A stretch of DNA of 64,000 nt from Candidatus Saccharimonadota bacterium (lineage in GTDB: Bacteria; Patescibacteriota; Saccharimonadia; Saccharimonadales; Saccharimonadaceae): assembly GCA_017406565.1 (NCBI GenBank), contig JAFQYG010000002.1, positions 124,001 to 188,000 on the forward strand, read 5' to 3'. A model generated the notes under the pieces. It was not told where the DNA came from. It saw nothing but the letters and a program-made list of their open reading frames with translations, and did no database searches. The translations under genes were made by a program, and so were the position numbers. The stretch's first letter is position 1. Every line of letters starts with the position of its first letter. Shown in pieces: positions 42,785 to 59,908 of this stretch.

Positions 42785-42860
42785 GGGGCGTTAGCTCAGC
42801 TGATAGAGCGCAGCATTCGCATTGCTGAGGTCGCGGGTTTGATTCCCGCACGCTCCACCA
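42785..42860 (+). tRNA. tRNA-Ala (anticodon CGC)
   Basis: 76 nt with encoded CCA. Acceptor GGGGCGT pairs with ACGCTCC and holds the alanine identity pair G3:U70. Anticodon stem CAGCA/TGCTG encloses loop TTCGCAT (anticodon CGC). TATAAT at 42771-42776. Confidence 0.95.
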
Positions 42861-42902: not shown

Positions 42903-42969
42903 AGGAGTGGCCCGGGAAGACTTTCCCGCACGCTCCACCACGGATAGCGTCTTTGTGGAGGGCCACAAA
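42903..42969 (+). repeat. Structured element holding a copy of the tRNA-Ala 3' end
   Basis: Bases 42923-42940 repeat exactly the last 18 nt of the tRNA-Ala gene just upstream (42843-42860). The copy sits in a foldable unit: outer stem GTGGCC/GGCCAC, inner hairpins GGGAA-gac-TTCCC-like and CTCCAC/GTGGAG. A duplicated tRNA 3' end is what integrases leave at attachment sites; no integrase is nearby. The following stretch to 43166 has no gene; it holds a terminator and repeats. Confidence 0.6.
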
Positions 42970-52996: not shown

Positions 52997-53932
52997 CTAA
53001 GTTTTTTTAACAATTCTTTTTATTTTGTTTTTTAATTCTGAAGATATGTCAAAACTCGCGTCGGCTAACTTAGTGATAGCGTTATCATAAATTTCATTGT
53101 CTTGTGGTGCTTGTGTTTGACTGCCTACTACTGCTTCGGGTGTAGGGTCAACTCCGAAATTTGCTTTTATGGTCGCTATTATTTCTAGTATTTTGCCTTT
53201 TTCTATTCCGTCAAAGTAGAATACATCTTTGCCTGCAACTAGTTTTAACAAACCTAAGAAACAATCTATCGTGATAATTGAGAACTTTATTTCATTTTCT
53301 TTGAGCTTAACTTTGACATCTTGTATGTCGAGCACTTCACCTAGGAAAAGGGTACAAGGATTATCATCTTTTTCGTTTATTATAGTAGCGGAGTCAAGAC
53401 TAAATTTGGTAATTGTGTTTTTAGGTGGATGATTTGAAGTATCATTATAATGTTTATTGAACTCCTCTAGGTTATCCCAAACTGCAAATCCATATGCAAA
53501 AGCAGATAATCCAACGTAAAAATCTTTGCCTTCTAATTTTTTGTCCCAAATTGCATGACGGTTTACTGCTTCAATCACAAATGAAGGTGTAGGGAATAAA
53601 GAGTCTTCTTTTGCAAGATAGTAATCGTGTGTTTCTTCGTCAGAAACCTTTAAGTGTTTGTGTAGATGTATTCTTTTAGGCTCTGCGTTAATTGTTAAAT
53701 TGCAATCGCGAATTATAATCTTGCTATTTTCGATTTTTAATAAATTAGTTATTAATCCAAATTCTTCCTTTGTATACTCATCTATGAGTGGATATTCATA
53801 CATGAAATACTTTGGGGTTTTTGATTCAAAAGAGGCAAAACCCCATGAATTGCAGGTGGAAACAATATCATTTTCGATATTTTCTTCATTTTTGTCACCT
53901 TCTCTTATAAATGATTCAGATCGTATTGGCAT
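52997..53932 (-). CDS. Hypothetical protein, 311 residues
   Basis: Not recognised. Soluble, no signal peptide; mixed alpha/beta with several beta-rich stretches (ENSKIIIRDCNLTINAEPKRIHL-type in the first third, VKLKENEIKFSII in the middle) and a C-terminal Lys-rich helix. TATAAT lies 6 nt before the ATG (leaderless type). It lies between csaA and a FISUMP gene and faces away from the latter. Confidence 0.7.
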   Translation of the reverse strand: MPIRSESFIREGDKNEENIENDIVSTCNSWGFASFESKTPKYFMYEYPLIDEYTKEEFGLITNLLKIENSKIIIRDCNLTINAEPKRIHLHKHLKVSDEETHDYYLAKEDSLFPTPSFVIEAVNRHAIWDKKLEGKDFYVGLSAFAYGFAVWDNLEEFNKHYNDTSNHPPKNTITKFSLDSATIINEKDDNPCTLFLGEVLDIQDVKVKLKENEIKFSIITIDCFLGLLKLVAGKDVFYFDGIEKGKILEIIATIKANFGVDPTPEAVVGSQTQAPQDNEIYDNAITKLADASFDISSELKNKIKRIVKKT

Positions 53933-54062: not shown

Positions 54063-55787
54063 ATGCTCAAAAAGAAACCTATATTAATTGCTCCACTAGG
54101 GCTAATTAGTTTAATTGTCCTTTCTGGAGCTTTTTTAATATCTCCTTATTCTTACGCTACTGATGATAATGCCATAGACAATGTTTCTGTTAATGTACCA
54201 ATCTCATGTACTATGTCTGGTACTGGTATGAATACTCATAATGCTAGTATAGTAAATGGTACCTACCAAGCAAATATAGGTACTACTACAATTAAAACCT
54301 ATTGTAATGATTCATCAGGCTTTGCTATCTATGCTATAGGATACACTAATGATGAATATGGTAAGACAGTACTAACTAATAACACACTAGGTTCTACTGC
54401 TGATATAGTAACAGGAACAGCTACAAGTGGAAGCACATCTAACTGGGCTATGAAGTTAGCTACAGACAGCACTGCTATATACGCCATCACTTTAGATAAT
54501 AGCTTTAATGCCTATCATGATGTCCCTTCTTCATATACAAAAGTTGCACATAGAGATAGTGGTACAGACATAGGTACTAATGCTACAGGTGCATCCTTAA
54601 CATCTACTTATGCTGCCTTTATGTCCCAAACCCAACCTGCTGGGGCTTATACTGGGCAAGTGAAATACACTTTAGTCCATCCAGCCACGGAAGAACCATT
54701 ACAGCCTCAACCAGCTACTGCCGGATGCATCAATTACTTTGCTAATGCTAGCACAACTGTTGGTGAAATGGGTTGTCAGTCTGCAACTAATAATGCATCG
54801 AGAACTCTTTGGGCATCTAACTTCAAACGAGATGGCTATGGTTTTGCAGGCTGGAATGACAAGTTTGACTACTCCGGTAATTTCTACGGTCCTAACCAAA
54901 CTATCACTACTCCAGCTGACGTATCTACAAACGGTCTATCCCTCTATGCCGTCTGGGTCAAATCAGCAGGCACAATTCAGAACTGGGATGGCTGTTCAAG
55001 TCTAGCAAGTGGAGCCACAACTGCCCTTACAGACGAACGTGACGGTAACGTATATGCAGTAGCTAAGCTCGCAGATGGAAAATGCTGGACTATAGAAAAC
55101 TTAAGACTAGACAATTCATCGGAGCTATCATCTTCCAACACCAATAATCCGTCTCTCCCTCTTACTAATTACAATGGTATTGTAGATAAATCGCAATCTA
55201 ATCATCTCTCTCAACCATATGATCCCTACACCTTGGCATGGTGTAACGAGAGCTCATCAGACTGTGACGACCAATCTATGCTCGCCACTAACAATACCAC
55301 TCTCTTCACAGACAATACATCCACTAGCTACAGCACATCTAGTAACGTTTACTCCTATGGCAATTATTACAACTGGTATTCAGCTACAGCAGGAAATGGT
55401 AAATATGGCTCTAGTTATGCTTCCGGGTACATAGCTCCGGGTGACATCTGCCCAGCAGGATGGCACCTACCTACTGGAGGAAGTGCTACAGCAGAGTTTG
55501 GCGCTCTTGATGTTGCTCTAGGTGGTACAGGCGCATACCAATCTGGTGATGCTGGTACAGCTCAATCCGCAAAATGGCGTTCTTATCCTAACAACTTTGT
55601 CTATTCCGGCTACGTGGATGGCTCTTCAGTGCTCTACCGCAGTTCCTACGGATACTATTGGTCGTCCTCGGCGAGCAATAGTTACTACGCCTACTACTTG
55701 AACTTCAATAGCAGTAGCGTCTACCCAGGCACGACCGGCAGCTACAAGTACGTCGGGAGGATGGTGCGTTGCGTCGCTGGCGTGTAG
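54063..55787 (+). CDS. FISUMP-domain surface protein with one InlB-like repeat
   Basis: 574 residues. Signal/anchor about 9-30; N-terminal beta domain (about 36-215) nearly the same as in the protein at 46056; InlB-like repeat (about 225-300, GYGFAGWN...LYAVW) nearly the same as in the gene ending at 1271; FISUMP domain from about 305 (LADGKCWTIENLRL, DICPAGWHLP) ending GRMVRCVAGV. It is thus a mosaic of parts shared with different paralogues. Followed by a strong terminator. Exported; adhesin role inferred. Confidence 0.9.
   Translation: MLKKKPILIAPLGLISLIVLSGAFLISPYSYATDDNAIDNVSVNVPISCTMSGTGMNTHNASIVNGTYQANIGTTTIKTYCNDSSGFAIYAIGYTNDEYGKTVLTNNTLGSTADIVTGTATSGSTSNWAMKLATDSTAIYAITLDNSFNAYHDVPSSYTKVAHRDSGTDIGTNATGASLTSTYAAFMSQTQPAGAYTGQVKYTLVHPATEEPLQPQPATAGCINYFANASTTVGEMGCQSATNNASRTLWASNFKRDGYGFAGWNDKFDYSGNFYGPNQTITTPADVSTNGLSLYAVWVKSAGTIQNWDGCSSLASGATTALTDERDGNVYAVAKLADGKCWTIENLRLDNSSELSSSNTNNPSLPLTNYNGIVDKSQSNHLSQPYDPYTLAWCNESSSDCDDQSMLATNNTTLFTDNTSTSYSTSSNVYSYGNYYNWYSATAGNGKYGSSYASGYIAPGDICPAGWHLPTGGSATAEFGALDVALGGTGAYQSGDAGTAQSAKWRSYPNNFVYSGYVDGSSVLYRSSYGYYWSSSASNSYYAYYLNFNSSSVYPGTTGSYKYVGRMVRCVAGV
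55618..55778 (+). other. DGR-like variable region in FISUMP gene 4
   Basis: Framework bases shared with genes 1 and 2 (tattggtcgtc, tcggcg, ccaggcac, aagta, gggaggatgg, gcgttgcgtcgctggcgt). Variable codons such as AGC, TAC, GTC, GGC and ACC share a third-position pyrimidine. Confidence 0.7.
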
Positions 55788-56141: not shown

Positions 56142-56344
56142 TTTTAAATTGTTTTTGAACACAAAAAATACCCCTCTTAGGAGCTAATTTTTGTGACACT
56201 CCACAAAATTTGTATTTATGCCAATATACTACAAGAATGAGTGTCATCTGTTGCCGTTTTTTTAGGATGTACATTTTATTCTTGCCGTTCCAAATAGACG
56301 AAAAACCATGTTTTTGTACTTGTCGTGAATTATCAGATATAAAA

Positions 56345-56508
56345 AGAACCACTATCGGTTCAAATGAACCAGTACGGTGGGACAATTTCCGCAAGAATAG
56401 TGGTTCTCAAAGTCCCGATAGATAGCTTGGAAGGTGGCAAGATATTGTCCTTCATCCGTCAGTACGTCTACTGAAGGCAGATTGCCAATTTCTGCTCGTC
56501 AAGCTACA
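56345..56508 (-). ncRNA. Candidate structured RNA with multi-hairpin fold
   Basis: On the minus strand TATAAT (56515-56520) stands 6 nt before 56508. The RNA would start TGTAGCTT, which pairs with AAGCTA at 56423-56428 and encloses three hairpins (GCAGA/TCTGC, CAGTA/TACTG, GAAGG/CCTTC). It ends in an 11-bp stem (56345-56355 with 56397-56407) holding two small hairpins (GGTTC/GAACC and GGA/TCC), followed by TTTTT. No open frame of note. Identity unknown. Confidence 0.55.
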
Positions 56509-56542
56509 TTTAATATTATATCATCAATTAGTCAAATAATTC

Positions 56543-56616
56543 TGGTACCCCTGCCCAGAGTCGAACTGGGAACCTAGCTTTAGAAGAGCAGAGCATCGAA
56601 TCCGCGATTCAGGGGC
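56543..56616 (-). tRNA. Degenerate tRNA-like sequence (anticodon TCT, Arg?)
   Basis: 74 nt on the minus strand: acceptor GCCCCTG pairs with CAGGGGT, followed by A and CCA; the T arm CCCAG-TTCGACT-CTGGG is perfect. The anticodon loop CTTCTAA would give TCT, but only 3 of 5 stem pairs form and the D arm is poor. TATAAT at 56663-56668 could drive it. Either a tRNA-Arg with unusual arms or a decayed or repurposed tRNA. Confidence 0.45.
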
Positions 56617-56672
56617 GCGATTTATACGATTTATCTGCTACATCTATACTTCATATACAAATATTATATCAC

Positions 56673-56736
56673 AAAAAATGGAAGCTCCGGTTAAGAGCCG
56701 ACCTCAGGACAAAATCCCTATTCGGGGGGAGCTTCC
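56673..56736 (-). ncRNA. Candidate ~60-nt three-way-junction RNA
   Basis: Minus-strand TATAAT (56743-56748), 6 nt, then GGAAGCTCC at 56736. The whole RNA is closed by a 12-bp perfect stem (56677-56688 with 56728-56739), with two inner hairpins GGTT/AGCC and GGAcaaaaTCC, and ends in TTTTTT. It is a self-contained promoter-structure-terminator unit related to the one at 56768. Confidence 0.6.
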
Positions 56737-56767
56737 ATTGATATTATAACATATGTTTTTAACCAAT

Positions 56768-56828
56768 AAAAAAAGAGAACCCCAGAGGCCTCTTCAGGAT
56801 TAATTCCCTTGGGCTGGCGGAGCTCTCC
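56768..56828 (-). ncRNA. Candidate ~60-nt three-way-junction RNA, second copy
   Basis: Minus-strand TATAAT (56835-56840), 6 nt, then GGAGAGCTCC at 56828. Outer pairing GAGA/TCTC and CCAG/CTGG, inner hairpins GAGG/CCTC and GGAttaatTCC, end TTTTTTT. Same arrangement and same conserved GGA....TCC inner hairpin as its neighbours, but with different outer-stem sequence. Confidence 0.55.
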
Positions 56829-56887
56829 ACTAGTATTATATCACAGCATAAAACTATCAGAGGTTAATGGAACATTTGTGTCATTTT

Positions 56888-59794: not shown

Positions 59795-59832
59795 CCGTGC
59801 TCTGGATGACACTCCAGCGAAAATATATTTGT

Positions 59833-59908
59833 GGTGGAGCGTATGAGATTCAAACTCATGACCTCTACTATGCCATAGTAGCGCTCTAATCAGCTGAGCT
59901 AACGCCCC
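59833..59908 (-). tRNA. tRNA-Ala (anticodon GGC)
   Basis: 76 nt with encoded CCA. Acceptor GGGGCGT/ACGCTCC with G3:U70; anticodon stem CTACT/AGTAG, loop ATGGCAT (anticodon GGC). Acceptor and D arm match the other tRNA-Ala at 42785, in opposite orientation. Confidence 0.95.

Follow-up and report, generated by a model that had tools for sequence, protein, structure and literature searches.

The question raised by this locus is whether the short minus-strand segments clustered at positions 56345-56840 of the window are compact RNAs selected for structure, as the original prediction held, and what such RNAs would do. The window is the whole 64,000-nt stretch of Candidatus Saccharimonadota DNA that was analysed.

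Layout of the block and folding against chance

In line with the original prediction, the minus strand of 56345-56840 carries TATAAT boxes, four in all (56840-56835, 56748-56743, 56668-56663 and 56520-56515), and a structured or tRNA-like segment comes after each of them. The block holds at least three structural families, namely the U1/U2 hairpin, the U3 cloverleaf and the U3 three-way junction, and its parts are as follows:

56835-56840, minus strand: -10 box TATAAT of U1, read from the sequence; TGTGA just before it gives an extended -10, and the type matches the genus consensus promoter
56768-56829, minus strand: U1, a hairpin RNA of about 60 nt with outer stem P1, inner stem P2, hairpin P3 (AGGGA/TCCT) and a T-run
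56743-56748, minus strand: -10 box TATAAT of U2, read from the sequence
56673-56738, minus strand: U2, of the same family as U1 but differing from it in the sequences of P1 and P2, supported by covariation and a phage homologue (G419:C1:5787-5855)
56663-56668, minus strand: -10 box TATAAT upstream of the tRNA-like element, read from the sequence
56543-56616, minus strand: degenerate tRNA-like element (Rfam tRNA 25.8 bits against a gathering score of 29)
56515-56520, minus strand: -10 box TATAAT of U3, read from the sequence
56423-56506, minus strand: U3 5' domain, a "cloverleaf" of 84 nt with closing stem TAGCTTG/CAAGCTA and three hairpins
56341-56406, minus strand: U3 3' domain, a three-way junction of 61 nt (GAACCACTAT/ATAGTGGTTC plus two hairpins) with a T-run (terminator)
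56241-56884, minus strand: block common to the genome of the window (G000) and G029, 91% identical, with ATGACAC at either end

The long outer stems and T-runs described for U1, for U2 and for the end of the longer RNA were confirmed, and the outer stem of U1 and U2 comprises 9 to 12 pairs directly continued by the T-run. The hairpin with GGA and TCC arms is present in U1 and U2, but the strings originally quoted for it are a plus-strand reading, those of the transcribed strand being GGAATTAATCC, GGATTTTGTCC and GGAAATTGTCC; in U3, most of the GGA/TCC stretch lies in a loop, and the phage homologue has not retained it. The view of all three units as one layout likewise held for U1 and U2, which form one family, but not for the third, which is a separate two-domain RNA with a three-way junction as its tail. 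Moreover, the distance of "exactly 6 nt" between TATAAT and the stem did not extend to the homologues, where the spacing is about 3-13 nt.

Comparison with dinucleotide shuffles gave folding z values of -4.7 for the U3 tail, -3.0 for the whole of U3, -3.0 for U2 and a weak -1.8 for U1, and the tRNA-like element (z = -1.0) did not fold below the shuffles. A mechanical descriptor consisting of a -10 box, a closed stem of at least 9 pairs and a T-run had no matches in the 64-kb window other than U1 and U2, and because shuffled windows average 0.65 such matches, the layout alone lends the units weak support. The decisive support for the putative RNA units is the covariation in their homologues.

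Homologues and covariation of the RNA families

A corrected covariance model (R3) was seeded with seven U1/U2 copies from four Saccharibacteria genomes and one phage. It gave at least 50 bits to all eight real copies, seven of which are its seed and score 63-80 bits by construction, U1 (63.0 bits, E = 1.5e-17) and U2 (66.2 bits) among them; the eighth, a decayed copy in G126 that stands outside the seed, scored 51.6 bits. Homologues were found in the sheep-ileum Saccharibacteria MAG RGIG5736 (G029), which has the complete block, in the MAG CAMVDR010000006 (G127), which has one U1 and one U3, in the yak-rumen MAG JAGCST010000030 (matching G153), in which a lone U1 lies between tRNA-Ala(CGC) and thyA, and in the phage contig IMGVR_UViG_3300028887_000330, which carries a U2-type unit. 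All other R3 matches in the wider family stayed below 26 bits, and these (in G035, G071, G202 and others) were set aside as simple terminator-like hairpins or chance. A search of 147 genus genomes with the exact core pattern returned two extra matches within S41 protease genes, which were taken as chance coding matches, and the core-pattern matches in Bacteroidales and Dehalococcoidia and four of the five viral ones were also attributed to chance. Most relatives also gave near matches of 15-25 bases, which represented promoter and tRNA similarity, and the matches in the phage and plasmid collections showed only T-arm similarity to phage tRNAs. In Rfam 15, U1, U2 and U3 had no match besides chance ones at E values up to 10, and at the gathering score only tRNAs were retrieved from the window and six related loci.

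Members of the U1/U2 family follow the order P1, spacer, P2, 2-3 bases, AGGGA(5-6 nt)TCCT, GARG, P2', CTCT, P1' and T-run. P1 and P2 vary with compensation among the copies; across the seven, 97.8% of the cells of the counted structure are paired and 9 of the 20 pairs have changed on both sides, giving a covariation score of 0.44, compared with no more than 0.11 when the structure is slid. All seven copies agree in the inner hairpin and in the unpaired GARG and CTCT, and the outer-stem sequence and the hairpin loops differ.

The U3 cloverleaf exists in two versions, between which eight pairs have changed on both sides and none is broken (four copies, 100% paired; covariation score 0.53, against at most 0.20 for slid structures). 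Both versions stand in tandem, 88 bases apart, in G127, on which account the initial treatment of U3 as a hypervariable region between G000 and G029 was dropped; the difference between these two genomes is best read as a putative alternative loss from a two-repeat array, suggesting that the cloverleaf may behave as a tandem-repeat module that expands and contracts. For the three-way junction, all 19 pairs are kept and 10 have changed on both sides among four sequences including that of a phage, with a covariation score of 0.57 against at most 0.08 for slid structures. In addition, the R2 model gave a weak match in G185 (14.7 bits).

Because the homologues are few (eight U1/U2, four cloverleaf and four three-way-junction copies, three of the latter nearly identical), the covariation rests on few independent events, and the alignments (A8, A12 and A13) were registered by hand, with N padding and guided by the structure, which biases them toward it; the slid controls fail. 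The predicted structures of U1, U2 and U3 are strongly supported by these comparisons, and the compensatory changes among the homologues that the covariance-model search yielded, as originally proposed, bear out the prediction that compact RNAs here are selected for structure.

The tRNA-like element has an intact acceptor stem, T-arm and CCA, with UCU at the anticodon position and a decayed D-arm and anticodon arm. It does not qualify as a tRNA (25.8 bits against at least 29 required, no full cloverleaf), ARAGORN did not call it, and with its D-arm and anticodon arm degenerate, a normal tRNA is not supported. A normal tRNA-Arg(UCU) is also encoded in the genome, making the element redundant. 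Just upstream on the minus strand, at about 56654-56631 of the window, there is a short frame, ATG AAG TAT AGA TGT AGC AGA TAA, which is identical in G029 and contains two AGA codons readable by the UCU anticodon of the element.

Chromosomal context and probable transfer of the block

Between G000 and G029, the block is 91% identical, similarity extending to its spacers, compared with 77% for the flanking trpS and 69% for the rluD-like gene. Since the block, spacers included, is far more similar than its flanks, it was probably transferred recently and not merely constrained. In both genomes, GAGTGTCA repeats, related to ATGACAC, lie just downstream of tRNA-Ala(GGC), and the U1/U3 region of G127 has a large serine recombinase abutting tRNA-Glu. 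Units were found in few of the 394 family genomes; they are carried by phages or integrative elements and are patchy among hosts, a distribution that marks them as borne by mobile elements.

The tRNA-like element and the nuclease and methylase neighbours that had been pointed out are present in the window, the latter as a GmrSD_N-HNH gene and an EcoRI-type methylase, followed by an ORF with no Pfam match. A type III toxin-antitoxin RNA finds no support in this setting, because these neighbours include no ToxN-like gene directly downstream in the window, and the neighbours of the other copies are unrelated. Among the copies seen, the restriction-modification-like pair adjoins the units only in the genome of the window; elsewhere they adjoin a serine recombinase or tRNA-Ala(CGC)/thyA, or sit inside a phage gene, so the units have no more than an incidental link to the tRNA-like gene and to the nuclease-methylase pair, and the pair is not a constant neighbour.

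The position of the block between ATGACAC/GAGTGTCA repeats beside tRNA-Ala, together with the recurrence of these repeats at other tRNA-adjacent islands, would fit a role as structured ends of mobile elements or as their terminators, either at the DNA level or by passively stopping transcription. This explanation appears unlikely, as each unit has its own promoter directly upstream, the conserved inner stems and unpaired bases are not needed by terminators, no element end lies near the phage copies, and the yak copy stands alone between tRNA-Ala(CGC) and thyA.

Further recurrent features were observed in the surroundings. A motif of the form GCCAAT...ATTGGAGTGTCAT...TGCCGTCC, with tandem GGACGGCA / TTTTTGYACA repeats, recurs in intergenic regions of the genus (window 56194-56260 and 59807-59833; L067 1500-2936; L148 455-492; L165/L166 near 1301-1760), where it flanks tRNA-adjacent islands and Fib_succ genes and looks like recombination or element ends. 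At 42923-42941 of the window, about 60 bases downstream of tRNA-Ala(CGC) (42785-42860), there is a duplicate of the 3' end of that tRNA (TTTCCCGCACGCTCCACCA), an attR-like trace of an integrated element. A secreted Fib_succ_major-type protein is encoded at 54063-55787 of the window and also at L067 2-1285, L022 3-1886 and L148 2-289, and its paralogues are strongly variable in the C-terminal part, reminiscent of the targets of diversity-generating retroelements. Moreover, a 311-aa protein without a Pfam match (window 52997-53932; L165, L166 and L167) has paralogues elsewhere in the genome and in relatives, two of which adjoin the GGACGGCA repeat motif.

The phage slot and the likely function of the RNAs

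The U2-type RNA of phage IMGVR_UViG_3300028887_000330 stands behind a consensus-strength promoter, antisense inside a 2151-codon ORF of virion-protein type. PHROGs assigns this phage an endolysin and a major head protein, and ORFs for a putative terminase and a putative tyrosine integrase were read by eye. Its sister, IMGVR_UViG_3300003523_000117, is 89% identical at the protein level over the flanking 380 codons and lacks the U2 unit; at the matching antisense position, TTGACA-17-TATACT precedes a segment of 70 bases whose fold is a three-way junction with a T-run (z = -6.7), and the U3 model aligns across the whole of this junction (L163) with 13.6 bits, the next best score there being 0.6. 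The linker around the slot has diverged between the two. Because the sister phages hold a U2-type and a U3-tail-type RNA at one position, both RNA types of the chromosomal block are putative alternative contents of a single phage slot, as judged from a small sample of three phages. In the third, a related prophage in G133, the same antisense promoter precedes a Shine-Dalgarno-like AGGAG and an ORF of 69 codons without a Pfam match. This ORF lies at about 7200-7450 of L168 on the plus strand (G133:C2 near 49201), inside a virion-type gene. The slot promoter is a variant of the consensus promoter of the genus, and none of 24 other promoters of that type drives a closed compact RNA. In addition, a closely similar copy of the slot promoter precedes U1 in G127, which would be a trace of exchange with the phage slot.

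The RNAs predicted here are mobile, phage-exchanged small-RNA genes and not housekeeping RNAs, and we consider it reasonably probable that the block is a mobile cluster of such genes with products that act through their structure, likely as protein partners or decoys serving the element. Each unit would comprise a promoter, a compact fold and a long closing stem doubling as terminator, with no reading frame. The RNAs would move between the temperate phages of one animal-gut Saccharibacteria genus and the integrative elements of that genus. In the phages they would form alternative cargo of one antisense slot in a gene of virion-protein type and would be expressed from a promoter of host consensus type. 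Since GARG and CTCT are invariant and unpaired and the outer stem and loops vary, recognition by a protein fits better than antisense pairing through loops, and the sharing of the slot with other small cargo behind a strong promoter also points to binding of a host protein, for which the RNAs may be binding partners or decoys. From these sequence comparisons we infer transcription, a protein target and a benefit to the element, which might lie in countering defences, modulating the host or competing with other elements; the most likely function is that of regulatory or counter-defence RNAs that bind a protein. More tentatively, Saccharibacteria phages or satellites might carry interchangeable structured RNAs, instead of proteins, as early counter-defence or host-takeover cargo, with a promoter nested antisense in a virion gene, and host chromosomes would then hold captured arrays in which cloverleaf and junction modules are gained and lost like cassettes.

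The exactly antisense placement of both sister-phage RNAs relative to the large virion-type ORF could also mean that they are ordinary cis-antisense regulators, the slot RNA restraining the virion mRNA and the chromosomal copies acting on incoming phage mRNA (superinfection immunity). We regard this as rather improbable, as the sister phages hold different RNAs at one place and the related prophage has an ORF there, chromosomal U1 and U3 have no such overlap, and the loops, where pairing would begin, are among the variable parts.

The reading as mobile RNAs that act through their structure has parallels among described systems. Racrs, solitary CRISPR repeat units in phages (PMC10651486), are likewise short RNA cargo of phages or elements that likely acts by binding a host protein, and as short structured phage-encoded RNAs behind a strong promoter they prompt the idea that the present units are RNA anti-CRISPRs mimicking host CRISPR repeats. 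This is very improbable: the units, which have three separate folds unlike Racrs, gave nothing beyond chance against seven CRISPR repeats of the genus (49 comparisons, allowing for the number of tests), cas1 occurs in 11 of 170 genus genomes and is absent from that of the window, and no CRISPR spacer of the genus matched these phages or the block above chance length. Least credible of all are tiny leaderless genes or leader peptides, suggested by ATG/GTG 4-8 nt after several -10 boxes, by 23 open codons of U1 in G000 and G029 and by the ATG GAA GCT that begins U2 in G000, as start, frame, length and peptide vary among the copies, several have no start, the changes keep pairing and not amino acids, and no conserved ORF was found in the units across copies.

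Phage-encoded tRNAs evade anticodon nucleases (PMC10264068), and tRNA-Lys neutralises PARIS (PMC11455837); with its tRNA-like element and cloverleaf-shaped RNA, the block resembles these cases of RNA cargo in host-phage conflict. Unlike phage tRNAs, the tRNA-like element falls short of the tRNA gathering score and of an ARAGORN call, the cloverleaf has no T-loop consensus or CCA end, and U1 and U2 have no tRNA features. The Pas sRNAs of E. coli, prophage-encoded and described as base-pairing regulators (PMC13192938), are similarly small RNA genes borne and spread by mobile elements, whereas the conserved core of the present units is a fold with invariant unpaired bases, found in a CPR lineage and in a nested antisense cargo slot.

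A targeted full-text literature search retrieved no relevant report on non-coding RNAs of CPR bacteria and phages, which thus appear hardly described, and the present data suggest that viruses of these bacteria carry a set of small RNAs not described before. In bacteria of which most have no CRISPR, three covarying families common to a CPR genus and its temperate phages offer directly testable candidates for conflict or control of the host by means of RNA. Furthermore, it is unusual for cargo to be carried in an antisense slot nested in a virion gene, occupied in related phages by RNAs of different types or by a small ORF, and this slot could serve to find further such RNAs. Separately, the consensus strong promoter of the genus, derived from 34 genomes, appears to be TTGACWTTTT(N)...TGTGCTATAAT with an extended -10.
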